Origin: a virus
Virus record (IMG/VR): IMGVR_UViG_3300045960_000114
Coordinates: 1-64,000 of that record
DNA: 64,000 bases
Direction: 5' to 3' (one strand)
Positions 11,417 to 40,075 of this stretch are shown in pieces (positions within the stretch are counted from its first letter, which is position 1; each line of letters opens with the position of its first letter). The translations under genes were made by a program, and so were the position numbers. Below the pieces are notes generated by a model. It did no database searches, had not been told where the DNA came from, and saw nothing but the letters and a program-made list of their open reading frames with translations.

Positions 11417-13894
11417 ATGGCGGTACTTTCATTCGTTACGAACACCGGGCCGAGCCGCTTCATCTCCTATGTGCCACCTGGCGGCCTATACATGGCGACT
11501 GGTCAGACGGCTACCATTGCTGGCATCATCGACACTGAAGTTCAGATGATGGACACTTCCAAGCTGCATCTGTTCCAGGCGGATATGGCAGCTGGGCGGA
11601 TCAGTGTAACCTACCAGTTCAACGATCAGGCTTTGACCAGTGGTGGATTCATTCCGGTAAGTGGAAGCATTGGTAGTGGATTGCTGTCGGATGGCGCTGT
11701 CGTGTCTGGTTCCATCGCGTCCGGTCAGATCGGTCCGTTGCATCTCGCCAGCGGTGTCGTCGCTGCGGCCATTTCCGGTGCGATCGGATCGGGCAGGCTT
11801 GCGGCTGGCGCAGTTATCAGCGCGTCAATCGCTTCTGGCCAAGTCGGGCCGAGGCACCTGGCCAGCGGCGTCACGATTCAAACAAGCGGCGCAGTAACCA
11901 GCGGGAAGATCGGTAATGGCGCGGTCGTGTCTGGTTCTATTGCCAGCGGCCAGATCAGTCCATACCATTTTGCCAGCGGCGCGGTTCATTCCGCGATCAC
12001 ATCCGGTTCGATCCATTCAGGGGACCTGGCTAATGGGACTGTAACATCCGCTATTATCGCTAGCGGACAGGTTGGTTCGTACCATCTGGCTTCAGGCACG
12101 GTTGATTCGGCTATTACTTCGGGGTCAATTCATTCTGGTGACCTTGGTGCTGGCTCGGTTCAGAGCGTCAACATTACAAATGGTGCCGTGGTCAGTGCGG
12201 CGATTGGAAGCGGGCAGGTCGGGTTCGAGCACATCGCTTCTGGCGTCATTCCACGGGGTCTTTTGTCCGGTTCAGTTCAATCTGGTGACATTGGTAATGG
12301 CGCTGTCGTTTCCGGGTCCATTGCCAGCGGACAGATCGCACAACATCATCTGGCGTCAGGAGTTGGTGGGTCTTTGTCATCCGGCTCCGTGCGCTCCGGG
12401 TACATGGGCGTTGCCGCCGTCGTTTCCAGTTCCATTGCCAGCGGACAGATTGGTCAGCACCACCTGGCTTCTGGTGTTGGTGGTGGCGTCCTGACGTCAG
12501 GTTCCGTAGGGTCAGGTACGCTTGGTAATGGAGTTGTCCTATCAAGTTCGATTGCCAGTGGCCAGATCACGCAGGAGCACCTGTCCAGCGGCCTGCCCAT
12601 CATTTCCGGTTCCATCGTGTCAGGTGATCTCGGAAATGGCGTGGTGATGTCGTCCAGCATTGCGAGCGGACAGGTTGGTGGTAGGCATTTCTCGTCAGGT
12701 GTGGTTCATGTCATTGTTACGTCTGGTTCAATCGGTGCCTATGCGTTGGCGGATAGCTCCGTAAGTTCCGCTCACATCGGGGCTGGTGAGATTGGGTACG
12801 AACACTTTGCTTCTGGTGCGACATTACCACAGTCAGGCAGGGTTGTGTCGGGCATGCTTGGTAATGGTGTGGTGGTCTCCGGTTCCATTGCTTCCGGGCA
12901 GGTCGGGCCAATGCATATAGCTATTGGCGCCGGCTTGTTAACCTCGGGTTCCGTTGTGTCTGGGCTTATCGGGGATCAGGCTGTTGCTTCAAGCACGCTT
13001 GCATCTGGTTCGGTCGGCCCAATCCATTTGAGTAGCGGGACAGCCATCGTCTCCGGCTCGATCATGTCGGGTGATCTGGCGGATAGCTCGGTGGTGTCTG
13101 GAACCATTGCTTCGGGACAGCTTTGTGCGGCGCACTTCGCGTCAGGCGTGCTGTATGAACAGTTCATCGCTTCTGGCGCTTCGATTATTTCTGGTCAGCT
13201 TGGTAATGGCGTGGTGTTCTCTGCCAACGTAGCCAGTGGTCAACTCGGTGGAACTCACTTCGGTTCGGGTTCAATTCAATCGGCTGCGTACGCTTCCGGT
13301 TCAATCAGCACCTTTAAGATTGCCAGCGGACAAATTTTGAACACGAACATCGCCTCAGGTGCTGTTCTGAGCGCAAACATTGGTTCAGGGCAGATTGGGT
13401 TCAATCACTTGGCTTCTGGCCAGCAGTTGAACTCCGGGGTGATCATCGCTACGTACCTGGCCTCGGGGACTGTGTCTTCGGCAAATATTGCCAGCGGGCA
13501 GGTGGGTGGGACGCACTTCGGATCTGGTTCAGTGCAGTCTGCCGCTTATGCGTCTGGTTCGATCAGCACGTTCAAGATCGCCAGTGGGCAGATTCTAAAC
13601 GTGAACATTGCGTCCGGTGCTGTTCTGAGCGCAAACATTGGTTCAGGGCAGATTGGGTTCAATCACTTGGCTTCTGGCCAGCAGTTGAACTCAGGCACGG
13701 TCGTCGCGACTTACTTGGCTTCTGGGGCGGTTTCTTCTGCCAACATTGCTTCTGGGGCGATCGCCTTTGCAGTTCCGGCTTTCAGCGGCCAGCCTGGTGG
13801 TACGGCGCTTGGTCTGATCACGCTGGATTTGTACAACAACCGGATTTGGGCATGTACATCTGGCAGCAACTGGCGTTACGCTTCGCTGACGTAG
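11417..13894 (+). CDS. Long repetitive Ser/Gly tail-fibre shaft protein
   Basis: An 825-residue protein. Residues 1-75 form a unique N-terminal domain, probably the attachment part. Residues about 80-780 are built from a repeat with the core SGSIASGQIGPxHLASG alternating with SGxIxSGDLGNGxV. I count 17 copies of the H-(L/F/I)-x-x-G element (HLASG and variants). The last about 30 residues (LGLITLDLYNNRIWACTSGSNWRYASLT) look like a C-terminal cap. Such repeats are typical of beta-structured phage fibre shafts that trimerise. The protein is extremely rich in Ser, Gly and Ala. A near-exact 258-base duplication near the 3' end shows that the shaft length changes by recombination. It is flanked by glycosyltransferase genes, so it is a candidate glycosylation target (inference). 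Confidence 0.75.
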   Translation: MAVLSFVTNTGPSRFISYVPPGGLYMATGQTATIAGIIDTEVQMMDTSKLHLFQADMAAGRISVTYQFNDQALTSGGFIPVSGSIGSGLLSDGAVVSGSIASGQIGPLHLASGVVAAAISGAIGSGRLAAGAVISASIASGQVGPRHLASGVTIQTSGAVTSGKIGNGAVVSGSIASGQISPYHFASGAVHSAITSGSIHSGDLANGTVTSAIIASGQVGSYHLASGTVDSAITSGSIHSGDLGAGSVQSVNITNGAVVSAAIGSGQVGFEHIASGVIPRGLLSGSVQSGDIGNGAVVSGSIASGQIAQHHLASGVGGSLSSGSVRSGYMGVAAVVSSSIASGQIGQHHLASGVGGGVLTSGSVGSGTLGNGVVLSSSIASGQITQEHLSSGLPIISGSIVSGDLGNGVVMSSSIASGQVGGRHFSSGVVHVIVTSGSIGAYALADSSVSSAHIGAGEIGYEHFASGATLPQSGRVVSGMLGNGVVVSGSIASGQVGPMHIAIGAGLLTSGSVVSGLIGDQAVASSTLASGSVGPIHLSSGTAIVSGSIMSGDLADSSVVSGTIASGQLCAAHFASGVLYEQFIASGASIISGQLGNGVVFSANVASGQLGGTHFGSGSIQSAAYASGSISTFKIASGQILNTNIASGAVLSANIGSGQIGFNHLASGQQLNSGVIIATYLASGTVSSANIASGQVGGTHFGSGSVQSAAYASGSISTFKIASGQILNVNIASGAVLSANIGSGQIGFNHLASGQQLNSGTVVATYLASGAVSSANIASGAIAFAVPAFSGQPGGTALGLITLDLYNNRIWACTSGSNWRYASLT
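13358..13692 (+). repeat. Direct repeats with 258-bp period inside the fibre gene
   Basis: The 77 bases at 13358-13434 are identical to those at 13616-13692, which is a period of 258 bases or 86 codons. The flanking sequence (about 13241-13498 against 13499-13756) is also closely similar with scattered third-position changes. This is a recent in-frame duplication of one fibre repeat block. Confidence 0.85.
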
Positions 13895-13902
13895 AGGTTT
13901 GA

Positions 13903-15027
13903 ATGGCTAAGAAACGGGCCAGAATACACGGCGTTACACCACCTCCGCCGCCTCCGCCGCCTGGACTTTACTCCTGGGGCTCAGGTTACAACGGAGAGTT
14001 GGGCACGGGAAGCACGCTGTATCGTAGCGTGCCGGGCCAGGTAGGTTCAGCATCCGATTGGACAGTTGCAGATTCTCTTTCCGGTAATGGCTATGGGTTG
14101 CGTACGGGTAAACTGCATGCCTGGGGGCCGAATTCTTACGGTCAGATCGGAAATGGTACGCAGGACTGGTCTACTGGTTACTCCAGCCCCGTGCAGATTG
14201 GCTCTGGCAATGACTGGTCTCATGTGGCTGGGGCTGATAGCGGCTATGTTGGTGGAATACGGTCTGGCAAACTGTATATGTGGGGAGCCAACTATAATGG
14301 GGCGTTGGGGTTGGACACGAATTTTGAATACAGCAGCCCTGTTCAAGTAGGAGCGCACACAGATTGGTCTTCGGTTGCTTGTGGCGCCGATCATACGCTG
14401 GCGATCAGGTCAGGTCAGTTATGGTCAACAGGATACAACGGGAATGGTCAGTTGGCCCAAGATGGTTCCACGTACTATCTATCCAGCTTTGTGCAGGTAG
14501 GGGCCGCGTCTAATTGGGCTTTAGTACAGGCGCGTTACAACACATCAGCTGCGCTTAAAGCGGATGGTACGTTGTGGATGTGGGGTAGTGGAGGTTACGG
14601 ACAGATTGGCGACGGTACGTATGAGTCTGCTGTCAGCAGCCCGATTCAAGTTGGATCCGAGACTGATTGGACGATGGTGTCGATCAGCGCCAGCCACGTC
14701 CTTGCTATACGTGGCGGAAAACTGTTTGCGTGGGGATATGACGGATACGGACAGTTGGGGCTTGGGTTGGATACCGGTGAGTCGTTCAGTTCTCCAATCC
14801 AGGTGGGATCTGAGACTGATTGGACCCACATTTCGGCGGGAGACGGTTTTAGTTTTGGCATACGTAACAGTGGCAGGCTTTACGCCTGGGGCTTCAATGA
14901 TTCTGGTGAGCTGGGTCTGGGTGATAATGACTGGCGCAGCAGCCCTGTTCAGGTAGGTGCACTTGGCGACTGGGAAGGTTGGATCGGGATCTGTGCTGGT
15001 TACAGTTTTGCTTTTGCAACACGGTAG
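13903..15027 (+). CDS. RCC1-type beta-propeller protein, first of a tandem pair
   Basis: A 374-residue protein. After a basic N-terminus and an eight-proline stretch comes a chain of RCC1 repeats. Each contains the hallmark (L/I)(Y/F)(A/S/M)WG..(Y/S)G(Q/E)(L/I)G.G, followed by SSPVQVG and DWxxV. Examples are LYSWGSGYNGELGTG, LHAWGPNSYGQIGNG and LFAWGYDGYGQLGLG. About seven blades are visible, enough for a complete propeller. RCC1 folds are protein-, membrane- or glycan-interaction platforms. In a phage fibre cluster this is most likely a virion appendage or receptor-binding protein. Its 3' end lies 9 bases before its paralogue. Confidence 0.8.
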   Translation: MAKKRARIHGVTPPPPPPPPGLYSWGSGYNGELGTGSTLYRSVPGQVGSASDWTVADSLSGNGYGLRTGKLHAWGPNSYGQIGNGTQDWSTGYSSPVQIGSGNDWSHVAGADSGYVGGIRSGKLYMWGANYNGALGLDTNFEYSSPVQVGAHTDWSSVACGADHTLAIRSGQLWSTGYNGNGQLAQDGSTYYLSSFVQVGAASNWALVQARYNTSAALKADGTLWMWGSGGYGQIGDGTYESAVSSPIQVGSETDWTMVSISASHVLAIRGGKLFAWGYDGYGQLGLGLDTGESFSSPIQVGSETDWTHISAGDGFSFGIRNSGRLYAWGFNDSGELGLGDNDWRSSPVQVGALGDWEGWIGICAGYSFAFATR

Positions 15028-15036
15028 GGGGCGTGG

Positions 15037-16161
15037 ATGGCTACTCCTGGCAGACTTCGTTACCGTGGGTATCAACCCGACCCATTTTTGGGTCGTATGT
15101 TTGGTTGTGGCTATGGCGGCGATGGAGAGTTTAACAACAATACTAGACTCACTGTCAGCAGTCCGATTCAGATTGGATCTGCAAACGACTGGAAAGGCGT
15201 GGTTGGTAATTCCATGACGTTGGCTATACGTTATGGGAAACTTTTTGCGATGGGAGCGCTTATACCCATACCGCCTGGGTTTGCCGTTAGAAGCAGCCCC
15301 GTACAGATTGGAAGCGAGACGGGGTGGACTGTAATTTCGGCGAGCACGGACCCATATAATCCCATGTTCGGCGGCATCAGAAACGGCAAGTTGTTCATGT
15401 GGGGGTACAATAATTACGGGCAGGTTGGGGATGGAACACGAACCATCAGATCTAGTCCGGTTCAGATCGGTTCCGATACTGATTGGACAGCGCTCTCATG
15501 CGGCAGGGAGGGTGCTTTCGGGATTCGCGGTGGGAAGATATTCGCTTGGGGCAACAACTCGTATGGTCGGTGCGGGGTATCGTCCGGATCGGTAGCTGCT
15601 TACAGCAGTCCAGTACAGATCGGCGCCAATACGGATTGGAGCCAGGTGAGTGCGTGTTACTACGGCGTTCATGCGATCCGGGCTGGCCAGCTTTATGGTT
15701 GGGGTAATAACAGTTTCGGTGAGATTGGTAACGGAACCAACGACGTACTGGATCATACTGCTCCGGTGCAGATAGGGACATTCGACGACTGGACTTTCGT
15801 GGCATCGAGTTTCATGGCCTGCTTTGGTATACGGAAACCTGGGAGGCTTTACGCCTGGGGATACAATGAGGTCACAGGTTCACTCGGGCTTGGTAATTTG
15901 ACTGGAGCTTTCAGTAGTCCGGTTCAAGTTGGATCAGGGATAGACTGGTCGTATGTCAGTACCACTGATGCTCTCAATTACACCGCCGCTATGGGCATTC
16001 GTTCGGGTAAGTTGTACAGCTGGGGACTCAACAGTTCTGGCGTACTCGGGCTTGGCGACATGAACAACCGGTCAAGTCCGGTGCAGGTTGGTTCGGAGAC
16101 TGACTGGACGAGCGCGTCCATGGGTGTTAGCCACGCGATAGCTATTCGGCGACCTGGCTGA
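15037..16161 (+). CDS. RCC1-type beta-propeller protein, second of a tandem pair
   Basis: A 374-residue paralogue of the preceding gene, the same length but clearly diverged. Blades show LFMWGYNNYGQVGDG, IFAWGNNSYGRCGVS, LYGWGNNSFGEIGNG and LYSWGLNSSGVLGLG, with RSSPVQIGSDTDW connectors. The N-terminus (MATPGRLRYRGYQPDPFLG) lacks the polyproline of its neighbour and starts directly in a degenerate blade. The likely role is as for its neighbour: a fibre or virion surface protein. Tandem duplication followed by divergence suggests selection for altered binding. Confidence 0.8.
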   Translation: MATPGRLRYRGYQPDPFLGRMFGCGYGGDGEFNNNTRLTVSSPIQIGSANDWKGVVGNSMTLAIRYGKLFAMGALIPIPPGFAVRSSPVQIGSETGWTVISASTDPYNPMFGGIRNGKLFMWGYNNYGQVGDGTRTIRSSPVQIGSDTDWTALSCGREGAFGIRGGKIFAWGNNSYGRCGVSSGSVAAYSSPVQIGANTDWSQVSACYYGVHAIRAGQLYGWGNNSFGEIGNGTNDVLDHTAPVQIGTFDDWTFVASSFMACFGIRKPGRLYAWGYNEVTGSLGLGNLTGAFSSPVQVGSGIDWSYVSTTDALNYTAAMGIRSGKLYSWGLNSSGVLGLGDMNNRSSPVQVGSETDWTSASMGVSHAIAIRRPG

Positions 16162-18558: not shown

Positions 18559-18696
18559 ATGCGCGTGACTGCGTATATCCTCGTGGTAGTATTCATCTTG
18601 GGCACCTGTGGGTGCGGGTCAAGGTCGAGGAGACTCCACGACCTCAACACCGTGTTGAATAGGCCGCCAGTTACGGAGGTGCGCCGTGCCATTTAA
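18559..18696 (+). CDS. Small lipoprotein
   Basis: A 45-residue product from ATG 18559. It has a signal peptide, MRVTAYILVVVFILGTCGCG, with a lipobox-like cysteine after a hydrophobic core, followed by a short basic tail. An o-spanin (Rz1-like) role is possible because small lipoproteins of this size occur in lysis cassettes, but no holin, endolysin or i-spanin is adjacent. The 3' end overlaps the next gene by 11 bases. Confidence 0.5.
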   Translation: MRVTAYILVVVFILGTCGCGSRSRRLHDLNTVLNRPPVTEVRRAI

Positions 18697-21107: not shown

Positions 21108-24100
21108 ATGATGGGCGTGCCCGACAAGCCTGGGCTTAACCCGGCCACGAGCACCAAGCCGCTGGACTACACGCTTGGTTCCACACCGCCACCGCCTCAG
21201 GTGACGCATCGGTCGTTCACGGATTACCCTAAGATCCGACAGAACGTCTTCGACAACGCGCTCAAGGCGATGTCCGAGAAGTACCCGATTGAAAATCAAC
21301 GGCATCGATTGGAGCTGCGGGAGGCGAAGTACGAGGATCTGAACCCGTTCACCCTGAAGGACCAGAAGAAGGCCATCATGGAGGGCGGTACCCTCCAGAA
21401 GAAGATCCTGGGCACGTGGGCGCTCGTGGACAAGGCGACCGGCAAGGTAATGGACCAGAAGGCCACCACCGTCGCGCACGTGCCGTGGATGACCCAACGT
21501 GGTACGTTCATCTTTAATGGCAACGAGTACACGGTTGCCAACCAGATGCGACTGAAGCCCGGTATCTTCACCCGCGTGCGCGAGAACGGCGTTCTGGAAG
21601 CACACGTCAACGTCAAGCCTGGCACCGGCCCGTCCTTCCGCATCTACATGGAGCCGGATACCGGCGTCTTCAGGCTTGGCGTGGGGCAGTCCAACCTGAA
21701 GCTCTACCCCATCCTGCGTTCGATGGGCGTGTCCGATCACGATATCACGAAGCATTGGGGTCCGGAAATCCTTCAGAAGAATATCGAGGCCGAGGATCCG
21801 CGCGCGGTAGCCCGCGCATACATGCGACTGGTCAACGTCCGGTCTGAGGAGAGTGCCAAGGCTGAAGGCGCGGCGATGGATAAGGAAGCCTCCCTGTTTG
21901 GCGTGGACCCTGATTTTGACAAGGCGTACAGGGAAGGTTCGGAACTCACCAGCGACCTGTTCGACCCGCCGGCTGAAATATGGTCGCGGGTGTGCATCAA
22001 GAAGTCGCCCGTAGAGGGGAAGGGTCTGTTCGCCAGCCTCAACTTCGATGCCGGCGAGACCATCTTCCCTGCCTTCGTGTTCACCGGGATCGACAAGCAC
22101 AACGACAGCATCAAGCGGTCGGTTCCGGCACGCTGGCTGAACCATAGCGACACGCCGAATATCGAGTTGTACGAGGACGGAGACATCGTCTGGGCGCGTG
22201 CGCTGAAGCCCATTCAGGCTGGCGAGGAGCTGCTGCCGGATTACGTGCAGTCGCATGAAGCGGTCAATTCCTGGGTGAGCCGGCTGCTGCCGCTCCTCGA
22301 GAAGTCGGCCAAGATCGGCGCCCGGGAGAGTGATCGGCGCTGGACGAAGTTGTGGTACACGGGCCGGCTGATCCACTCCAGGCACAACCAGAAGGACTGG
22401 GTGCTGCTCAAGGTCCACAAAGGGCTGTGCGAGGCCACGTATGACTCGCTGAAGGCCGAGGGGATCGACTGCGAGCCCAAGTTCGACCAGCCGCACATCA
22501 GCATTATGCGCCCGGAGGAAGTCGAGCAGCTCAAGAAGAAGTTCGGCAATTCCTGGCAGGGTGCGGCCAAGATCGGCCATCCGATGCGTTTCAGCGTCAC
22601 CCGCATCGTGAATCTGGTGCCGGCGGGCTGGGACAAGTACGACCGCGTCTGGTTTCTTGAGTGCTCCTCGCCCGACCTGGAGAAGTACCGCGAGGACTTG
22701 GGGCTGCCCTGCCTCCCGCAGAACAACGAGAGCGGGCACGACATGCGCTTCCACATCACTGTGGCGGTGCATCCAAATACCGTGTCGAAGGCTGCGGAGC
22801 TGCTGTGCGAGAAGAGGGCTGCCGCGTTCGATGACGTTGGCTCCGGTACGAATGCTGTATCACCCAGGCCGGACAACCAGGGCAAGGCGCTGCTCGAGCA
22901 TTTCCAGAAGATGGAAGTCGACCCGGAGGTCACATCGGCCACGCTGGGTCAGGCGCACACCAACATTGGCATCCCTACGCTGATGCGTACCACGCAGAAG
23001 CTGATTAACGTCTCCCGCGAAACGGAAGACACGGATGACCGCGATTCGCTGTCTTTCCAGACGCTGCATGGTCCGGAGGACTTCTTTGCCGAACGTGTGA
23101 AGCGTGACGCGGGGATGATTGGTCGAAAGATGCTGTGGCGCGCGTCTGCTCGTGGGAACCTGAAGCATGTTCCCGCCGGTGTTCTGACCCCGCAGCTTCA
23201 TAGTGTGTTGCTCAACTCCGGCATGGGTATGCCGCTGGAAGAGACCAACCCGCTGGACATCTTTGACCAGAATCAACGTATTCTGCGGCTTGGCGAAGGC
23301 GCCATTCCATCCATCGAAGCAGTCCCTGATGAAGCACGCTCGGTTCAGCCGTCACACTTCGGGTTTATTGACCCGGTCAAGGCGCCTGAGTGCTATGACG
23401 AGGCGACTGAGGTCATGGTTGAGACTGGGTGGAAACCGTGGCCGAAGGTGACCGAATCTGACAGATTTGCTTGTCTCATTAATGGCAGGCTTGAGTATCA
23501 CCACGCTGACCGGTTGATCGCGGAGACCTACAAAGGACAGATGTATGGTGCGGATACTCAGACATTGAGTTATCTGGTAACGCCAAACCACCGCATGTGG
23601 GTGCGTCCTCAGGGGTCCACGAAGAAAGATTACAACCCGACTTACCGATTTGAGTTACCTGATGAGATTGTAGGCACAAACCGCCTATTCCGCTGCGGTG
23701 GGCATGCTCCAGTCGGCGGAACGCGAACTGGATTTACCCTTCCAGTAATTGAGGCGGATGGTAAGGAAAACCAGATTCACGGTAATCCACCTATTGGCTC
23801 CTCACTGAAGGTGTTCAAGGAAGTTGACATAAACGATTGGGCTGAGTTCATGGGGTGGTATCTCAGTGAGGGTAGTCTCAATGGGCAGTATGTAACTCGG
23901 ATTACCCAGTCGAACGTGGCGAACCCCGAGAACTGCTTGGCGATCAGTAGGCTTCTCAATCGATTACCTTTCACGTGGTGTTTCGTTGAAGGCGACACGT
24001 TCACCATCTCATCGAAACAACTGAATAGCTACCTCACACAGTTTGGGTTCTGTAACGATAAGTTTATCCCGAGTGAGATCTGGGAAGCCCCTGTTCTGGC

Positions 24101-27100
24101 GCGTGAGTTATTCTTGAGAGCGTTACTGGCTGGTGATGGGCGGACTAACAGGTACGGACGCAAGAGTCAGCTTTGCACTACCAGTCGGCGACTGGCTGAT
24201 GATGTGCAGCTTCTGGCATTTCAGTTGGGTCACTCTACTAGAATCTCGTTCGAGAAGGATGAGCGAAAAGATACGTACCTTGGATGTTATATCGTCAATA
24301 TCCACGCCAAGAATGAGCGTCTCGTTGTTGGTCGAAGCGCGTATCATCCCGACGGTCAATACCGTTCGGTAAACTATGACGGAAAGGTTTACTGCGCTAC
24401 CGTCCCTGGTGGTTTGTTGTACGTCAGGCGCGGTAACTCAGCTGGATTCTGGTGTGGTAACAGTGAGAAGATCGGCGTGGATCTGCGTGTCGCTCATGGC
24501 GCTGTCAAGGGATCTGACGGTCAGTTCTACACCACCGTGAAGAACGTCCAGAGCGGCGAGCGCGAACTGGTGTCGGCATCCAGCATGTCCAAGTCGGTCG
24601 TGGCATTCCCCGGCGAGATGAACCGAGACACGCCGAAGGTGCGGGCCATGGTCAACTCCAGGCGCGTGGAATACGTGCCTCGGGACGACGTGCAGTACGA
24701 GCTTCCTCATGGCTCAAACATGTTCGCCGCTGGCTCGAACATGGTGCCCATGATCGGCGGGATCAAGGGTGGCCGTCTGTTGATGGGTTCCAGAATGGTG
24801 ATTCAGGCGCTGCCGCTCAAAGGTGCGGAAGCACCGCTTGTCCGCAGCGCCGGCGAGGACGGGAACAGCTTCGAGAACCTCTACAGCGAGTACGTGGGGG
24901 CCGTTCGCGCCAAGGGGCACGGCGTCATCGAGCATGTGGATCCGGATAAGATGGTTGTCCGGTACAAGAACGGTGAGCGCGAGACACACGAGCTCTACAA
25001 CAACATGCCGTTCAACCGCAAGACACTGATCCACAGCACGCCACTCGTCAAGATCGGCGATACCGTGCGGCCCAACCAGCTCATGGTACACAGCAACTAC
25101 ACGGACAGGGAAGGCAACATCGCGCTGGGGCGCAACCTGCGCGTGGCCTACATGCCCTACCACGGCTCGAATTTCGAGGACGCCACTGTCATCAGCGAGT
25201 CGGCGGCCAAGAAGCTGTCCAGCGAGCACATGTACCAGGTCTCGCACGAAGTGGACAAGGACACGACGGTCGGGCGCAAGGAGTTCGTTTCCATCTTCCC
25301 GGCCAAATACCCGAAGGACGGGTTGAAGCATATCGACACCAATGGCGTTGTGAAGCCCGGTTCGATCGTCAAGCACGGCGACCCGCTGGTCCTGTCCATG
25401 CAGAAGGGCAAGATCGACGCACTGCATCGCGGGCACAGCCCGATGTGGTCCGACAAGACAACGGAATGGCATCACACGTCCGATGGGTTGGTCACCGACG
25501 TGGCGCCGACAAAGGATGGCGGCTGGAACATCATCGTCAAGTCGTACGCCCCCATGCAGGAAGGCGACAAGATGAGTGGCCGGTACGGGGACAAAGGTAT
25601 CGTCTCCAAGATCCTGCCCGACCATCAGATGGTGCATGACAAGGACGGCAGACCGTTTGACGTGATCCTGAACCCATTGGGAATTGTCTCTCGCATCAAT
25701 CCCAGTCAGGTTGTCGAAGCGGCGTTGGGCAAAGTGTCTGAACACACCGGCAAGCCGTACTCAATGCCTGCCTTCATGGAAGACGACTTGATCGGGCACG
25801 CGCAGAAGGAGCTGGCCAAACACGGGCTATCCGACACGGAAGACGTGTTTGACCCTACTACCGGGCGCAAGATCCCCAAGGTGTTCACGGGCAACCGCTT
25901 CATCATGAAGCTGCATCACACGGCTGAGTCCAAGGGCCGTGGGCGCGACATAGGTGGTTACACGGCTGAAGGGCTGCCCGCGCGCGGCGGCGAGGGTGGC
26001 AGTAAGCGAATTGGCCAGATGGAGCAGGCGGCGCTGCTGTCGCACGGCGCTACGGAAGTGCTGAAGGACGCGCAGATCGTACGCGGCCAGCGTAACGATG
26101 ATTGGTGGAGTTCGTTCAGGCGTGGGTTGCCGCCACCTTCCCCCAAGGTTCCCTTTGTCTACGACAAGTTCCTGAACTACATGAAGGGCGCCGGCATCAA
26201 CACCGACAAGCGCGGTGACCGGATTCACCTGATGGCGCTGACGGACAAGGACGTTGAGAAGATGTCGTCCGGGGCGATCACCAGCCGCGATACGGTGCGC
26301 GGTGATACGATGGAAGAGATCCCTGGTGGCTTGTTCGACCGACACATCACCGGGGGACATAATGGTGATCGGTGGGGTCACATCGCACTGGCAGAACCCC
26401 TGCCGAACCCCGTGTTCGAGGAGCCCATCAGGACTCTGTTAGGTCTAACAGCATCCAAGTTCTCTGATGTGCTGGCGGGCAAGGAGAAGCTGGGCGGCAA
26501 CACCGGTTCGAAGGCGATCTACACGGCGCTAAACAACATCAAGACCGGCGACGCGATCAAATATTACGAAGGCGTGATCAAGGACGGGCGCAAGTCGGCG
26601 CGCGATAAGGCCATTAAGGCGCTAGGCTACCTGCGCGGGCTGGAGAAGGGCAAGCTCAACCCGGTCGACCTGATGATGAGTAAGGTGCCGGTCGTGCCGC
26701 CCAACATGCGCCCCATCACGGTCTTCCGCAAGATGACCATGGTTGCGGACCCGAACTACCTGTACCGCGACCTGATGTTCTCCAATGATGCTTTCAAGGC
26801 GGTCAGGGATGAACTGGGCGAGGAGCACTCCGGCGATGAGCGACTCAACCTCTACAACTCCTTCAAGGCAACCACTGGACTTGGTGACCCAGTTCAAGCG
26901 AAAACCAAAGACAAAGGAGTGCGAGGGCTGCTTGCACACGTGTTCGGGTCGGGAAGTCCCAAGTTCGGCATGTTCCAGCGGCGCGTGCTGTCGTCATCGG
27001 TCGACGAAGTCGGGCGGGCCACAATCACCGTCAACCCCGAACTCAACATGGACGAAGTGGGATTGCCCGAACCAAAGGCATGGGTGATCTACCGTCCGTT

Positions 27101-27608
27101 CATCACCAGGCGTCTCGTGCGGCGCGGTATGCCAATGTTGCAGGCGGCCAAGGAAGTAGCCAACCAGTCGAGGGTGGCGCGTGACGCGATGATGGAAGAG
27201 ATCACGCAGCGCCCGGTCATCATCAACCGTGCGCCGGTGTTGCACCGGTACGGGTTCATGGCAGCGTGGCCCAAGCTGGTCAAGGGCGAGACGCTACATG
27301 TACCACCGGTGGTTTGCAGCGGCTTTAACGCGGATTTTGATGGCGACAACATGAACTACCACGTTCCCGCTACGGACGGAGCCGTCAAGGACGCTGTTGA
27401 AAAGATGATGCCGTCGCGTAATCTTAGGTCTGTCAGGAACTTCGGTGTGCAGTACACCCCGAAGAACGAGTTCCTACTGGGACTCTACCTGGCCTCGAAG
27501 GCCGACAACAAGAACGAGCCTAAGGTCTTCGCCAACAAGAAGGCCGTGATGGATGCCTGGAAGCGCGGCGAGATTGACGTAGGTGACCGCATCGTAACGA
27601 GGGATTGA
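21108..27608 (+). CDS. RNA polymerase beta subunit fused to the N-terminal half of beta-prime, with SET-like and 2H inserts and an intein
   Basis: A 2166-residue protein, 1809 without the intein. Beta landmarks in order: VPWMTQRGTFIFNGNEYTVA (about residue 125), DDRDSL (the DDIDHL equivalent) and FGFIDPVKAPE, interrupted by the intein at residue 762. After it come ALGRNLRVAYMPYHGSNFED and GDKMSGRYGDKGIVSKI, with the conserved active-site lysines. Beta-prime begins near residue 1700 (IHLMALTDKDVEKMSSGAIT, GLFDRHITGG). It continues through VVPPNMRPITVF and RPVIINRAPVLHRYGFMAAW to the metal-binding NADFDGD (2074-2080). The beta-prime N-terminal zinc-binding cysteines are absent. The ORF ends shortly after the active-site region. 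The rest of beta-prime is encoded at 30182-32026. Residues 293-574 hold two extra domains. It should catalyse DNA-directed RNA synthesis for the phage. Confidence 0.95.
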   Translation: MMGVPDKPGLNPATSTKPLDYTLGSTPPPPQVTHRSFTDYPKIRQNVFDNALKAMSEKYPIENQRHRLELREAKYEDLNPFTLKDQKKAIMEGGTLQKKILGTWALVDKATGKVMDQKATTVAHVPWMTQRGTFIFNGNEYTVANQMRLKPGIFTRVRENGVLEAHVNVKPGTGPSFRIYMEPDTGVFRLGVGQSNLKLYPILRSMGVSDHDITKHWGPEILQKNIEAEDPRAVARAYMRLVNVRSEESAKAEGAAMDKEASLFGVDPDFDKAYREGSELTSDLFDPPAEIWSRVCIKKSPVEGKGLFASLNFDAGETIFPAFVFTGIDKHNDSIKRSVPARWLNHSDTPNIELYEDGDIVWARALKPIQAGEELLPDYVQSHEAVNSWVSRLLPLLEKSAKIGARESDRRWTKLWYTGRLIHSRHNQKDWVLLKVHKGLCEATYDSLKAEGIDCEPKFDQPHISIMRPEEVEQLKKKFGNSWQGAAKIGHPMRFSVTRIVNLVPAGWDKYDRVWFLECSSPDLEKYREDLGLPCLPQNNESGHDMRFHITVAVHPNTVSKAAELLCEKRAAAFDDVGSGTNAVSPRPDNQGKALLEHFQKMEVDPEVTSATLGQAHTNIGIPTLMRTTQKLINVSRETEDTDDRDSLSFQTLHGPEDFFAERVKRDAGMIGRKMLWRASARGNLKHVPAGVLTPQLHSVLLNSGMGMPLEETNPLDIFDQNQRILRLGEGAIPSIEAVPDEARSVQPSHFGFIDPVKAPECYDEATEVMVETGWKPWPKVTESDRFACLINGRLEYHHADRLIAETYKGQMYGADTQTLSYLVTPNHRMWVRPQGSTKKDYNPTYRFELPDEIVGTNRLFRCGGHAPVGGTRTGFTLPVIEADGKENQIHGNPPIGSSLKVFKEVDINDWAEFMGWYLSEGSLNGQYVTRITQSNVANPENCLAISRLLNRLPFTWCFVEGDTFTISSKQLNSYLTQFGFCNDKFIPSEIWEAPVLARELFLRALLAGDGRTNRYGRKSQLCTTSRRLADDVQLLAFQLGHSTRISFEKDERKDTYLGCYIVNIHAKNERLVVGRSAYHPDGQYRSVNYDGKVYCATVPGGLLYVRRGNSAGFWCGNSEKIGVDLRVAHGAVKGSDGQFYTTVKNVQSGERELVSASSMSKSVVAFPGEMNRDTPKVRAMVNSRRVEYVPRDDVQYELPHGSNMFAAGSNMVPMIGGIKGGRLLMGSRMVIQALPLKGAEAPLVRSAGEDGNSFENLYSEYVGAVRAKGHGVIEHVDPDKMVVRYKNGERETHELYNNMPFNRKTLIHSTPLVKIGDTVRPNQLMVHSNYTDREGNIALGRNLRVAYMPYHGSNFEDATVISESAAKKLSSEHMYQVSHEVDKDTTVGRKEFVSIFPAKYPKDGLKHIDTNGVVKPGSIVKHGDPLVLSMQKGKIDALHRGHSPMWSDKTTEWHHTSDGLVTDVAPTKDGGWNIIVKSYAPMQEGDKMSGRYGDKGIVSKILPDHQMVHDKDGRPFDVILNPLGIVSRINPSQVVEAALGKVSEHTGKPYSMPAFMEDDLIGHAQKELAKHGLSDTEDVFDPTTGRKIPKVFTGNRFIMKLHHTAESKGRGRDIGGYTAEGLPARGGEGGSKRIGQMEQAALLSHGATEVLKDAQIVRGQRNDDWWSSFRRGLPPPSPKVPFVYDKFLNYMKGAGINTDKRGDRIHLMALTDKDVEKMSSGAITSRDTVRGDTMEEIPGGLFDRHITGGHNGDRWGHIALAEPLPNPVFEEPIRTLLGLTASKFSDVLAGKEKLGGNTGSKAIYTALNNIKTGDAIKYYEGVIKDGRKSARDKAIKALGYLRGLEKGKLNPVDLMMSKVPVVPPNMRPITVFRKMTMVADPNYLYRDLMFSNDAFKAVRDELGEEHSGDERLNLYNSFKATTGLGDPVQAKTKDKGVRGLLAHVFGSGSPKFGMFQRRVLSSSVDEVGRATITVNPELNMDEVGLPEPKAWVIYRPFITRRLVRRGMPMLQAAKEVANQSRVARDAMMEEITQRPVIINRAPVLHRYGFMAAWPKLVKGETLHVPPVVCSGFNADFDGDNMNYHVPATDGAVKDAVEKMMPSRNLRSVRNFGVQYTPKNEFLLGLYLASKADNKNEPKVFANKKAVMDAWKRGEIDVGDRIVTRD
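21984..22247 (+). other. SET-like domain inserted in RNA polymerase beta
   Basis: Residues about 293-380 show three SET hallmarks in order: VEGKGLFAS, WLNHSDTPNIEL (N345-H346-S347, the NHSxxPN motif) and GEELLPDYV (residues 372-380). SET domains methylate protein lysines using SAM. The insert lies in beta between the region after VARAYMRLVN and the DDRDSL motif. The catalytic Tyr is probably Y379. Whether it is active, and on what, is unknown. Confidence 0.75.
22341..22830 (+). other. 2H-phosphoesterase-like domain inserted in RNA polymerase beta
   Basis: Residues about 412-574 directly follow the SET-like domain and contain the two diagnostic H-x-S/T motifs: PHISIMR (H463-I-S465) and FHITVAV (H549-I-T551), 86 residues apart. 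The 2H family includes RNA ligase/cyclic phosphodiesterase-type enzymes acting on 2'-3' or cyclic phosphate ends of RNA or nucleotides. Presence in an RNA polymerase suggests an action on transcripts or nucleotides, which is inference. Confidence 0.7.
23391..24461 (+). mobile_element. Intein with LAGLIDADG endonuclease motifs in RNA polymerase beta
   Basis: A 357-residue intein begins with Cys762 (CYDEATEVMVETGWKPWPKV) and ends with Asn1118 in FWCGN, followed by Ser as the +1 extein residue. Block B is VTPNHRMWV, and blocks F/G are KVYCATVPGGLLYVRRGN and then GFWCGN-S, with Gly instead of His before the terminal Asn. Two dodecapeptide-like motifs, FMGWYLSEGSL and FLRALLAGDGRT, indicate a LAGLIDADG homing endonuclease. 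The insertion splits APE from SEKIGVDL, equivalent to the conserved 'ETPEGPNIGL' region of bacterial beta. The coding sequence is visibly more AT-rich than the flanks, which suggests recent arrival. Confidence 0.9.
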
Positions 27609-30181: not shown

Positions 30182-32026
30182 ATGAACACGACCGTCGGTC
30201 AACTGCTGCTTAACGATGCTCTGCCAGAGCAGCTGAGAGACTATGGCCGTGTGATGGACAAGAAGACGATTGCAGCCCTGTTCTCTAAGGTAGCTGAAGA
30301 GCATCCCAACAAGTTCAAAGACCTAAACTTCGAATTGCATAATCTGGGTTCGCATGTGTCAACCGTTCACGGTCGGAACGCCAGTTTCTCGCTCAACGAC
30401 CTGAAGATGCCAGACGCTGTGCGCGCCATGCGTGACGAGCTGAGCAAGAAGATCGACGCGATCAACACCAGTCCCGGGAAGGCTAGTCAGAAAAATGACA
30501 AGATCGTGGAGACTATTTCCGGCTACCTGGAGCGAGCCAACGAGTTGAACTACTCGGAGGGCGTGAAGGAGAACAATCCGTTTGCACTGCAGGTGCTCTC
30601 TGGTGCGCGTGGCAACGCCAGCCAGTTCCGTTCTATGCGGGTAGGGGACATGCTGCTGGTCGACCACAAGGACCGGCCCATCCCGATTCCCGTCATGCGC
30701 TCCTATGCCGAGGGTGTCGACCCGGCCCAGTATTGGGCATCCGCTTATGGCGCGCGCAAGGGAGCCATCTCCGTCAAGTTTGCGACGCCGAAGTCAGGCT
30801 ACCTTGGCAAGCAGCTCATTTACGCGGCGCACCGCATGGTGGTGTCCGAGAAGGACTGCGAAACGACCAACGGGATTACGGTGGCTGCCAATGACGCCGA
30901 CAATGAGGGCGCTGTGCTGGCGAGGGATGTCGGAGATCACTCAGCGGGAACGGTTCTAGGTCCGCGATCGGTCAAGGCGTTAGGCGACCAGAAGGTGGTT
31001 GTTCGTTCCCCCATCACCTGCCAGGCCAGGAACGGCGTCTGCCAGAAGTGTGCCGGTATCCGCGAGCGTGGTGGTTTCCCGCCGATTGGTGACAACATTG
31101 GCATCGCAGCGGCGCAGGCTGTGTCTGAACCGATCGGACAGGGCCAGCTCTCAGAAAAGCACACAGGCGGCATGGCCGGTGGTAAGTCGAATAAGAGCGG
31201 CCTGGACCTGGTGAACCAGCTCGTACAGGTGCCCACTATGTTCCAGGGCGGTGCGGCGGTTGCATCCAACGACGGCAGGGTGACAGAGATCAAGCCGGCG
31301 CCACAAGGTGGTAAGTACATTCGCGTCGGTGCGACTGAGCACTGGGTGCCCGCACATCTCGAGCCCAAGGTGAAGGTTGGTGATGAGATCGAAGCCGGTG
31401 ACATTATCTCCGAAGGCATTCCAAATCCGGCGCTGATCGCGCAGCACAAAGGCATTGGCGAGGGCCGCAACCAGTTCGTTAATGTCATGCGCTCAACATT
31501 GAAGGAAGGTGGCTTCCCTGCACACCGCAGAAATCTGGAAGTCCTGGCGCGCGGGCTCGTCAACCACGTGCGTGTCACCGATCTCGATGGGCCGGCTGAT
31601 ACGGTGCCTGACGATGTCATGGAATACGATTCCCTTTCGCGCGGATACCAGCCGCGTTACGGGTTCCAAGTGCGTCCTCCTAAAGAGTCTACGGGTCTTT
31701 ACTTGGAGGAGCCGGTATTGCATTACTCCATAGGAACCCGTATAACACCAAGGGTGTCAAAAGCGATGGAGGACAACAAGGTAGGCTCGGTCAAGGTGCA
31801 CGCTGATCCGCCTTCCTTTGTCCCTGAGATGAGCCGGGCAATGGAAACGCTAGCGCACTCAGACGATTGGATGGTTAGAATGGGTGGGTTGTATGGCGTT
31901 AAACGCAGCGTGATTCAGTCCGCTCATCGCGGCGGAGCTTCCGACGTGCATGGGACATCGTTCATCCCTTCGCTTGCGCAAGGGACAGAGTTCGGGAAAG
32001 AGATCGGAACCAAGGGTACCTACTAA
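30182..32026 (+). CDS. RNA polymerase beta-prime subunit, C-terminal half
   Basis: A 614-residue protein with its own ribosome site and ATG. It starts at MNTTVGQLLL, equivalent to the TTVGRALL segment just past the active site of bacterial beta-prime. It carries the bridge-helix region (GARKGAISVKFATPKSGYLG) and four zinc-ligand cysteines (KDCETTNG, then TCQARNGVCQKC). The trigger-loop region is IGIAAAQAVSEPIGQGQLSE and then KHTGG, keeping the active-site His but not the usual Met-Arg. There is no large trigger-loop insertion like SI3 of E. coli. It must pair with the product of 21108-27608 to form the catalytic centre. A C-terminal DWMVRMGGLYGVKRSV segment matches the final conserved region. 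Confidence 0.95.
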   Translation: MNTTVGQLLLNDALPEQLRDYGRVMDKKTIAALFSKVAEEHPNKFKDLNFELHNLGSHVSTVHGRNASFSLNDLKMPDAVRAMRDELSKKIDAINTSPGKASQKNDKIVETISGYLERANELNYSEGVKENNPFALQVLSGARGNASQFRSMRVGDMLLVDHKDRPIPIPVMRSYAEGVDPAQYWASAYGARKGAISVKFATPKSGYLGKQLIYAAHRMVVSEKDCETTNGITVAANDADNEGAVLARDVGDHSAGTVLGPRSVKALGDQKVVVRSPITCQARNGVCQKCAGIRERGGFPPIGDNIGIAAAQAVSEPIGQGQLSEKHTGGMAGGKSNKSGLDLVNQLVQVPTMFQGGAAVASNDGRVTEIKPAPQGGKYIRVGATEHWVPAHLEPKVKVGDEIEAGDIISEGIPNPALIAQHKGIGEGRNQFVNVMRSTLKEGGFPAHRRNLEVLARGLVNHVRVTDLDGPADTVPDDVMEYDSLSRGYQPRYGFQVRPPKESTGLYLEEPVLHYSIGTRITPRVSKAMEDNKVGSVKVHADPPSFVPEMSRAMETLAHSDDWMVRMGGLYGVKRSVIQSAHRGGASDVHGTSFIPSLAQGTEFGKEIGTKGTY

Positions 32027-37884: not shown

Positions 37885-38625
37885 ATGAACGACTTGGTTG
37901 ATACGCTGGCCGTACGTTGCGTTCTTACTAAAGAAGCGATGACGGGCGTCGGCGTCGATCAAGACCCCGAGACTCGCCGTCTTCGCAACCTGTTCGACCA
38001 GTCCGTTGCTCGTGAGCAGGCTTTGCGAAGGCATGCGCAGCGTATGCACGACATGGCGCAATCCGCCAGTCAGAGCGAGCCGAATGAGGTTGGCGACATC
38101 ATCGGGGAGTCCGCTGCCCGGCTTCTTCCTATTCCGCGCTCGCTGGGTGAGGCCGCGATCAGAACTCCAATCGTGGGTGCATCGGCGCTTGCCGGCAAGC
38201 AGCTGATGCAGACGCATACCAACTCAGACCTGAAACGATTGTTTTCCGGTAGAGGCAGTTTCAAGTGGGACCGGCCTAATCTTTCGGGGAAGAAGACCAA
38301 TCTTCCGATTCGTGGACTTGTTGGCGGGCTTGCTGGCGCGGCAATAGGATCGGTTGCCACGGGCATTCCTATGGCCATCATGCACGCGATCAAGAAGATG
38401 CAGGGTGGCGAGACGGCTTACGATGCGCGCGAGGTTGCGGAAGAAGTGCAGGGCAGGGCCGAAGCCGAGCAGGCTAAGCGCGAAGAGCTGCTGAATCAGA
38501 TCAAAGCACGCATTCCGCAGCCTGCGGCCAATGCGCCCGTAGGTAAGGCGGCTGAATCGAATACGCAAGCTGAAGCTCTGGTGGACAAGATAAAGAAACG
38601 GGTGGAGGAGCATCAGCATGCTTAA
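37885..38625 (+). CDS. Hypothetical protein with Gly-zipper membrane segment
   Basis: A 246-residue protein. Residues about 135-160 (LVGGLAGAAIGSVATGIPMA) form a Gly-zipper-type hydrophobic helix. The C-terminal part is a charged coiled coil (AEAEQAKREELLNQIKARIP). The N-terminal part includes LTKEAMTGVGVDQ. It overlaps the capsid protease gene by 8 bases. Position next to the protease suggests a head-associated protein, but no family is recognised. Confidence 0.5.
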   Translation: MNDLVDTLAVRCVLTKEAMTGVGVDQDPETRRLRNLFDQSVAREQALRRHAQRMHDMAQSASQSEPNEVGDIIGESAARLLPIPRSLGEAAIRTPIVGASALAGKQLMQTHTNSDLKRLFSGRGSFKWDRPNLSGKKTNLPIRGLVGGLAGAAIGSVATGIPMAIMHAIKKMQGGETAYDAREVAEEVQGRAEAEQAKREELLNQIKARIPQPAANAPVGKAAESNTQAEALVDKIKKRVEEHQHA

Positions 38626-40075
38626 GATCGTTCTCTCGGGCTCATTTGACTTCGGCATTCCGACGGCGGCGCTGGTTGACGTCCACCGGCGCGGACCTGA
38701 TTCGGTATGGATGCAGAAGCGCGCAGCTGTCTTGACCCGCGAGCTGGAAGGAATTCGCCCGGAGCCCGGCCATTCGCACCTTCATCTGATCTCCATGGGC
38801 GCGATGGAAGCCTACGGGTTCAACAGGAACGGTGACGGCTTTAACGAGAAGACCGGCAGCTTCGAGATTCCGGAGCCGAAAGCCGGCACGCCGAAGATCA
38901 TCAAGCTGGCTGGCGGGCTGATCGACTTCCACCCGACCTTCCTAAAGTACGGCCATGTCTTCAAGCACCACATCAACAAAGACCCGCAGCGCGCGATCGG
39001 CGAGATCAAGGCGGCTGCGTTCAACCCCGAGATGCGGCGCGGCGAGCTGATCATTAAGGTACCGCACGGGCGTGAGTGGGATGACGACCTTCAGAAGCTG
39101 GCCAGCGGCAAGGACATCGCGTTCTCGATGGCCTGCAAGGTGGCCTACGACATCTGCAGCATCTGCGGCAATCGCGCCAAGACCCGGGCTGATTACTGCG
39201 ACCATGCTGCGAACCACATGTCCGCGATCACCAAAGAGGGGCACCAGGTTGGTGTCATCAACGACGCCCCTTCTTTTTTTGATATCAGCAAGGTGATCAA
39301 GCCCGCTGACCGAATCGCCTTCTCGCTGTACAAGGCGGCATCCGCCACTGCAGAGATGAGCGGTGCGGCGCTGGCTGAGGAGATCGGTCTGCTGGAGCCC
39401 AAGATCTACATCCCGTCGACACCGCTATCCTTGCTCTACAAGGAAAAGTTGGCGGCTGTTCGCAAACTGGCTGACATGGAAAAAGAAGTCGAGACCAAAG
39501 CCAGGGGCAGCGACAACAAACACCTGTCTGATCTCGGGGCGGCGACCAAGACGGATGAATGTAGTGAGGAGTTACAGAAACTCAAGGGCTGCCCGCTGGC
39601 GCAGGTTTTGAGTTCGTTGCACGACGCGCGCATCTCCCTGTCGCTCCGGGACTTCTTCAAACTGGTATCGAATGAGTCGATACCGGAGGGGGATCTAGAG
39701 GACGCGGAAGGCATGCTTCCCGGCATGTTCAACCGCATGCTGTCGGATGGCTCGGCGGATGACGACGCGCGTGACTCCGCCTACGACGGCGTTTCAGGTT
39801 CGCTTCCCGAGCCAATCCGCGAGATGATCGAGAAGATGACCGGGTCGCATTCAATGAGTGGGAATCCCGCACGCATGCGCGTGAGGGTGATGATCATACG
39901 TGGGGTGAAACCGAAAGTACGCCAACTCGATACGAAGCAGGCTTCGTGGAATGAGAAAGCAGCGGAACTGGTCAGGGAATATGGCCGGTACCAACTTGCT
40001 TTCGCAGCCCGCGAACGCCAGAAGGACATGCCAAGTAACGAGTTGACAGTGCTCAGGAATTACCTTACATTTTAA
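38618..40075 (+). CDS. Prohead (capsid maturation) protease-like protein with zinc-knuckle
   Basis: A 485-residue protein. Residues about 50-190 follow the layout of phage prohead proteases: HSHLHLISMGAMEAYGFNRN, then HVFKHHINKDPQRAIGEIKA, KVPHGREWDD and GKDIAFSMACKVAYDICSIC. This gives a conserved H in the 'F-K-H-H' region and an S in the 'IAFSMACK' strand as candidate catalytic residues. CSICGN and YCDHAANHMS then form a Cys/His knuckle that I have seen in some large-phage proteases. It lies immediately before the scaffold-like and capsid genes, as expected. It should cleave scaffold and head proteins during maturation. Confidence 0.7.
   Translation: MLKIVLSGSFDFGIPTAALVDVHRRGPDSVWMQKRAAVLTRELEGIRPEPGHSHLHLISMGAMEAYGFNRNGDGFNEKTGSFEIPEPKAGTPKIIKLAGGLIDFHPTFLKYGHVFKHHINKDPQRAIGEIKAAAFNPEMRRGELIIKVPHGREWDDDLQKLASGKDIAFSMACKVAYDICSICGNRAKTRADYCDHAANHMSAITKEGHQVGVINDAPSFFDISKVIKPADRIAFSLYKAASATAEMSGAALAEEIGLLEPKIYIPSTPLSLLYKEKLAAVRKLADMEKEVETKARGSDNKHLSDLGAATKTDECSEELQKLKGCPLAQVLSSLHDARISLSLRDFFKLVSNESIPEGDLEDAEGMLPGMFNRMLSDGSADDDARDSAYDGVSGSLPEPIREMIEKMTGSHSMSGNPARMRVRVMIIRGVKPKVRQLDTKQASWNEKAAELVREYGRYQLAFAARERQKDMPSNELTVLRNYLTF

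Follow-up and report, generated by a model that had tools for sequence, protein, structure and literature searches.

SET and 2H phosphoesterase domains in a probable gate-loop insert of a phage beta-beta' fusion RNA polymerase: candidate host-modifying cargo

The window analysed here is a stretch of 64,000 nucleotides from the 185,265-base record of a large bacterial virus (phage), IMGVR_UViG_3300045960_000114, and it encodes a multisubunit RNA polymerase. The open reading frame at 21108-27608 (+) specifies a 2166-aa protein that contains beta and the N-terminal part of beta'. Pfam searches recognise beta and the beginning of beta' (Rpb2_6, E 2.8e-56; Rpb1_2, E 1.2e-23), together with three further domains, namely SET, a 2H phosphoesterase (2H-SAK) and a LAGLIDADG endonuclease, and polymerase relatives share 33-51% identity with the chain. 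Both double-psi beta-barrel signatures are present, with NADFDGD intact at 27327-27347 and the beta lysine motifs at 25563-25598. An earlier note on this DNA described a fused polymerase; the beta-beta' fusion is real, but its beta' part is incomplete, since the chain stops soon after NADFDGD. The rest of beta' lies on an ORF of its own at 30182-32026 (+, 614 aa; Rpb1_5, E 1.5e-21), and the polymerase therefore consists of a beta-beta'N fusion plus a beta'C subunit. Assignment to the split jumbo-phage polymerases of the phiKZ/AR9 type was rejected, as beta is joined to the beta' N-terminus, and a separate polypeptide exists for the beta' C-terminus only.

Polymerase ORFs of about 2000 aa or longer, with a C-terminal extension of roughly 550-650 aa, occur in L162, L165, L175, L185 and many other related loci, so that beta and the whole of beta' apparently form one chain there. 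In a close relative, an ORF that looks by eye like a SWI2/SNF2-like helicase follows the polymerase gene immediately (L008:13169-16657). Elsewhere in the window, 13903-16161 encodes two adjacent 374-aa proteins that by eye are rich in RCC1-like repeats and probably belong to the tail or fibres, and an ARAGORN call of tRNA-Asp at 12021-12094 lies within the repetitive ORF 11417-13894 and is probably spurious. No Rfam RNA was found in the 18-36 kb part of the window, and searches with defence profiles and NCBIfam profiles gave no matches.

Alignment to insert-free relatives places an insert of about 340 aa (aa ~247-584; 21846-22859) in a probable gate-loop region of beta that runs from RLVNVRSEE to SPRPDNQ (21825-22880, +). 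Vibrio phage D69, Salmonella phage Arash and IMG/VR contigs, all insert-free, align cleanly on both sides of it. Among 124 polymerase loci, a count that includes near-duplicate contigs and three loci that do not show the site (L173, L190 and L224), 119 align across the site in one piece and none of these carries an insert there. The polymerase of L221 is broken near the gate loop (core residues 227-273) by about 6 kb with stops and has further intein-sized gaps, and that of L155 carries an insert around 30 residues downstream of the window's site. A SET insert in the polymerase is found in one sequence only, that of the window; single-sequence scans of IMG/VR for close relatives of the insert returned none, as did a single-sequence scan with the polymerase. 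The loop at the insert site varies in length across the polymerase family. Pairwise alignment of L009 with a cyanobacterial beta sets a variable loop opposite RPGEPPT, with modest to low confidence at that stretch; we take RPGEPPT to be the gate loop (E. coli beta ~371-376). The gate loop could not be located in an hhalign comparison of the beta N-terminus with E. coli beta, and we call the site the probable beta gate loop.

About half of the insert is a SET domain. The earlier note had proposed a SET-like methyltransferase domain at residues 293-380 from three motifs in order, and the DNA bears this out: 21984-22247 (+) reads SRVCIKKSPVEGKGLFA...NHSDTPN...GEELLPDYV in frame with ORF 21108-27608, with the motifs at G304-A309, N345-N351 and G372-Y379. 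Its identity and its site in beta stand, while the boundaries shift, because the domain together with a conserved N-terminal motif (GVDPDF...SELTSD...) begins nearer residue 265 and spans aa ~266-390 (21903-22277, +; core 21984-22247). The PF00856 profile scores 30.6 bits (E 4.8e-7) in the whole protein, against a curated cut-off of 22.4 bits, and reaches E 2e-8 when the insert is searched alone. In an alignment with 18 other dereplicated domains from phages and viral contigs, G304, G306, R342, N345, H346, D378 and Y379 are invariant across the 19 sequences. Structure prediction with AlphaFold2, built on a 31-row alignment, recovers the SET fold with pLDDT 83-98 across the greater part of the domain. 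Foldseek searches of the PDB with this model return the MLL1 SET domain as the best match (E 1.7e-6, probability 1.00), followed by viral vSET. Residues ~278-390 are thus a genuine SET domain by profile, motifs and fold; it has the motif residues of an active enzyme, which suggest lysine methyltransferase activity.

The other half of the insert is a 2H phosphoesterase domain (aa 406-559; 22323-22784, +), with both HxS/T motifs intact (HIS 463-465 and HIT 549-551). The earlier reading, correct about a SET domain with active-enzyme motifs inside beta, was incomplete in that it missed this domain and the K-x-A linkers beside the modules. PF22547 matches aa 406-559 with E 3.2e-10 and 40.8 bits (cut-off 27), and there is a weak match to the 2'-5' RNA ligase family. 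The AlphaFold model has a mean pLDDT of 74, and its best Foldseek matches are 2H proteins; the top one, human Usb1, has probability 0.99 but an E value of only 9e-3, and the next, a Burkholderia phage phosphodiesterase and the anti-CBASS nuclease Acb1 (probability 0.30), are of low probability. Phage 2H domains have two proposed substrates, RNA ends or defence nucleotides (PMC5512222). In tblastn searches of isolated phages for the 2H domain, nothing significant was found.

Further downstream, beta is interrupted by a LAGLIDADG intein between FGFIDPVKAPE and SEKIG (aa 762-1118; 23391-24461, +; PF14528, E 6.4e-6), which is absent from D69 and Arash and has foreign codon usage. Inserts of about 350 aa lie at about this position in L048 and L166, and other relatives have intein-sized inserts elsewhere in the polymerase. 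An intein or homing element was considered as the cause of the SET-2H insert and rejected, as 21888-22958 contains no Hint or homing nuclease domain. Third-position GC of the SET and 2H coding regions is 0.85-0.89 and, like their codon usage, matches that of the polymerase, compared with 0.56 in the intein. This match makes a fresh acquisition or an assembly join unlikely. As for a bacterial source of the SET domain, three weak genome matches were obtained, one of them a cupin-SET phage-like protein.

Related phages carry the same modules in other settings. Profile searches detect 2H in nine of 18 related records, and nine IMG/VR loci have 2H modules outside polymerase genes. The domain is seen alone, with GNAT and HAD (L240), with a weak HAD-like sequence (L143) or with Nudix (L145). 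The L155 polymerase has an independent 2H-like insert in the same lobe; this insert shows homology to the 2H module of the window (hhalign 97%, E 8.8e-11), and it lacks the catalytic histidines, as do the 2H modules of L144-L148. SET was confined to the window phage in the first 24 records searched; a later profile search placed it over the cut-off in two nearer relatives and found it weakly in one. In G021, SET is embedded in a 616-aa protein and has the K-x-A motifs KKEA and EKQA on its two sides; the N-terminal ~40 residues of this protein match the window ORF at 18686. In G022 a SET gene (144 aa) and a 2H gene (194 aa) are near neighbours. Moreover, the L210 polymerase bears an N-terminal fusion of 557 aa that comprises inorganic pyrophosphatase (InPase), LysM and phage lysozyme. 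Together, the mosaic proteins, the single genes and this fusion indicate that the SET-2H insert is one instance of a clade-wide habit.

A short motif, hydrophobic-x-K-x-A, marks the borders of the modules. In the window polymerase, K-x-A occurs as DKEAS ahead of SET (aa 258-262; 21879-21893, +), as EKSAK between SET and 2H (aa 398-402; 22299-22313, +), which is the same 2H-flanking position as in L140-L143, and as the trailing SKAAE and EKRAA (aa 560-572; 22785-22823, +). The border lysines are residues 259, 399, 561 and 569, the last without a preceding hydrophobic residue. K-x-A flanks 2H in several of L140-L148, and VSK[LA]A follows 2H in several homologues. Across the RNAP/virion gene cluster at 18.6-45.3 kb (18686-45222), which was chosen after the motif had been noticed, there are 45 occurrences against 13.2 expected from per-protein shuffles (z 8.9), compared with 55 against 47.2 in the remaining genome (z 1.1); control patterns (R.A, K.G, K..A, A.K and others) show no enrichment in the cluster. 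Enrichment beside the polymerase gene (z at least 2) recurs in 13 of 19 relatives and is missing from six, L155 among them. Once insert and intein are removed, the polymerase shows as many motifs as expected (7 against 7.0). The count in the insert by itself (4 against 2.1) falls short of significance; it is the location of the motifs at the module borders that stands out. The linkers of podovirus cupin-SET proteins have K-x-A in only 4 of 55 cases, so the motif is no common feature there. Outside the window, record positions 87075-88802 encode a protein with a K-x-A excess of its own (16 against 5.4 expected).

A putative maturation-protease site is the simplest explanation of the motif, and it may be the site used by the whole phage clade. 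A candidate for the protease is encoded at 38618-40075 (+), where tblastn finds homology to an Arash 'structural protein' and to mycobacteriophage hypothetical proteins; the ORF has no Pfam match, and the protease role is our inference only.

The separate ingredients are of kinds already known: phage SET domains in cupin-SET genes, phage RNA polymerase fusions and polyvalent proteins. Polyvalent proteins, which are carried by phages and conjugative elements, include examples with 2H domains, and N4-type virion RNA polymerases occur with ART, RNase or peptidase domains (Iyer et al. 2017, PMC5512222); the term 'SET domain' is absent from the text of that paper. With these systems the window shares a large multidomain protein in a late or virion gene region, 2H among the domains, a polymerase joined to effector-type enzymes, and modules reshuffled between proteins. 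Like polyvalent proteins, it has several unrelated effector-type domains (RNAP, SET and 2H) in one frame, and its SET and 2H domains are of an exchanged kind, which relatives have in mosaic proteins or as lone genes. It differs in that its polymerase is multisubunit (double-psi beta-barrel), that the modules lie within the catalytic subunit and that virion delivery is only presumed. The AR9/PBS1-type polymerases of Bacillus jumbo phages, in which an HD phosphohydrolase is fused to beta (PMC7824862, PMC7598289), are likewise phage multisubunit enzymes with an extra enzyme domain on beta. Their HD domain, however, is terminal and on a split subunit, whereas SET and 2H occupy an internal loop of a beta-beta' fusion.

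At the level of single domains, vSET (PBCV-1 A612L) and MLL1 share the SET fold and catalytic motifs with the window domain, which unlike them is not standalone and has no visible zinc-binding post-SET cysteines. The closest SET sequences are those of podovirus cupin-SET proteins (MW202744, Rhodoferax phage P26218), at 31-43% identity and with the same pre-GxG N-terminal motif. Those proteins are products of ~280-aa structural-region genes with an N-terminal cupin-like domain, outside the polymerase, whereas the window SET is inside it. Usb1 and phage Acb1 share two HxS/T motifs and a probable 2H fold with the window 2H domain and are distant from it by the Foldseek values given above. The earlier note regarded a SET insertion into beta as undescribed; no description of SET inside an RNA polymerase, or of SET combined with 2H in a polymerase loop, was found in the literature searched, with most subscription journals outside its coverage.

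The presence of SET and 2H in one polymerase loop suggests that the polymerase is a carrier of host-modifying enzymes. Our preferred reading, to which we assign a probability of about 0.55, is that the two domains are enzymatic cargo of the polyvalent-protein kind, placed in the probable gate loop and acting on the host early in infection. On this view the modules would reach the transcription machinery with the polymerase as infection begins, and injection with the virion is the most likely route. Virion delivery we infer from the gene's neighbourhood among virion-type genes, by analogy with the virion polymerases of the N4 and AR9 types (PMC5512222, PMC7824862, PMC7598289) and from the L210 InPase-LysM-lysozyme fusion, which is cargo of the kind expected in an injected protein. 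SET would then methylate lysines of host proteins, for example nucleoid or transcription proteins; the substrates cut by 2H would be RNA ends or the nucleotide second messengers used in host defence. The modules, bounded by hydrophobic-x-K-x-A, would perhaps be freed by the phage maturation protease. A more specific version can be offered only tentatively: the RNA polymerase of this clade would carry interchangeable host-modifying enzymes between hydrophobic-x-K-x-A cleavage sites, and SET and 2H of the window would be cut free by the maturation protease, with methylation of host proteins in the first minutes of infection.

Alternatively, SET and 2H may stay attached and act as regulators in cis, with the polymerase, its partner proteins or the RNA that it makes as targets. 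Methylation by SET would then fall on the polymerase or on a sigma-like or NusG-like factor bound next to the gate loop, and 2H would act on the nascent RNA as a processing enzyme. The probable insertion site suits this idea, because the gate loop, together with the beta' clamp helices, contacts NusG and RfaH (PMC9226497), and the Bacillus jumbo phages, with their HD phosphohydrolase on beta, confirm that phage polymerases with fused enzymes exist (PMC7824862, PMC7598289). Nevertheless, the same modules occur in other proteins or lone genes of relatives, where no polymerase partner is needed, and almost all relatives lack them in the polymerase. Cis action is accordingly unlikely, and SET acting on the polymerase itself is possible without being specifically favoured.

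We also give a low probability to the view that the modules are inert or lightly constrained passengers, binding or structural elements in an insertion-tolerant loop. The loss of catalytic histidines from the 2H modules of L144-L148 and the L155 polymerase means that a module can persist without that chemistry, and the retention of such modules suggests a binding role in those relatives; the variable loop length across the family also speaks for the passenger view. In the window, however, the two 2H histidines are in place, as is every SET signature residue, and the codon usage of the insert fully matches that of the polymerase. An artefact, whether chimeric assembly or chance motif similarity, is very improbable: although the insert is known from a single metagenome-derived contig and the scan found no second copy, a single open frame spans 2166 codons whose usage is uniform except in the intein, the profile and fold matches are strong, and both modules, SET and 2H, belong to the native repertoire of this phage group.

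T4 ADP-ribosylates host RNA polymerase, and to our knowledge no phage is known to use SET-type lysine methylation for host takeover. If the more specific version of the cargo reading is true, phage takeover would extend to protein lysine methylation delivered by a polymerase. The SET domain in the polymerase loop provides a concrete candidate enzyme for testing, with named active-site residues. Furthermore, the clade-wide motif leads to a testable rule for the possible processing of virion proteins and cargo in little-studied large phages with beta-beta' fused polymerases.
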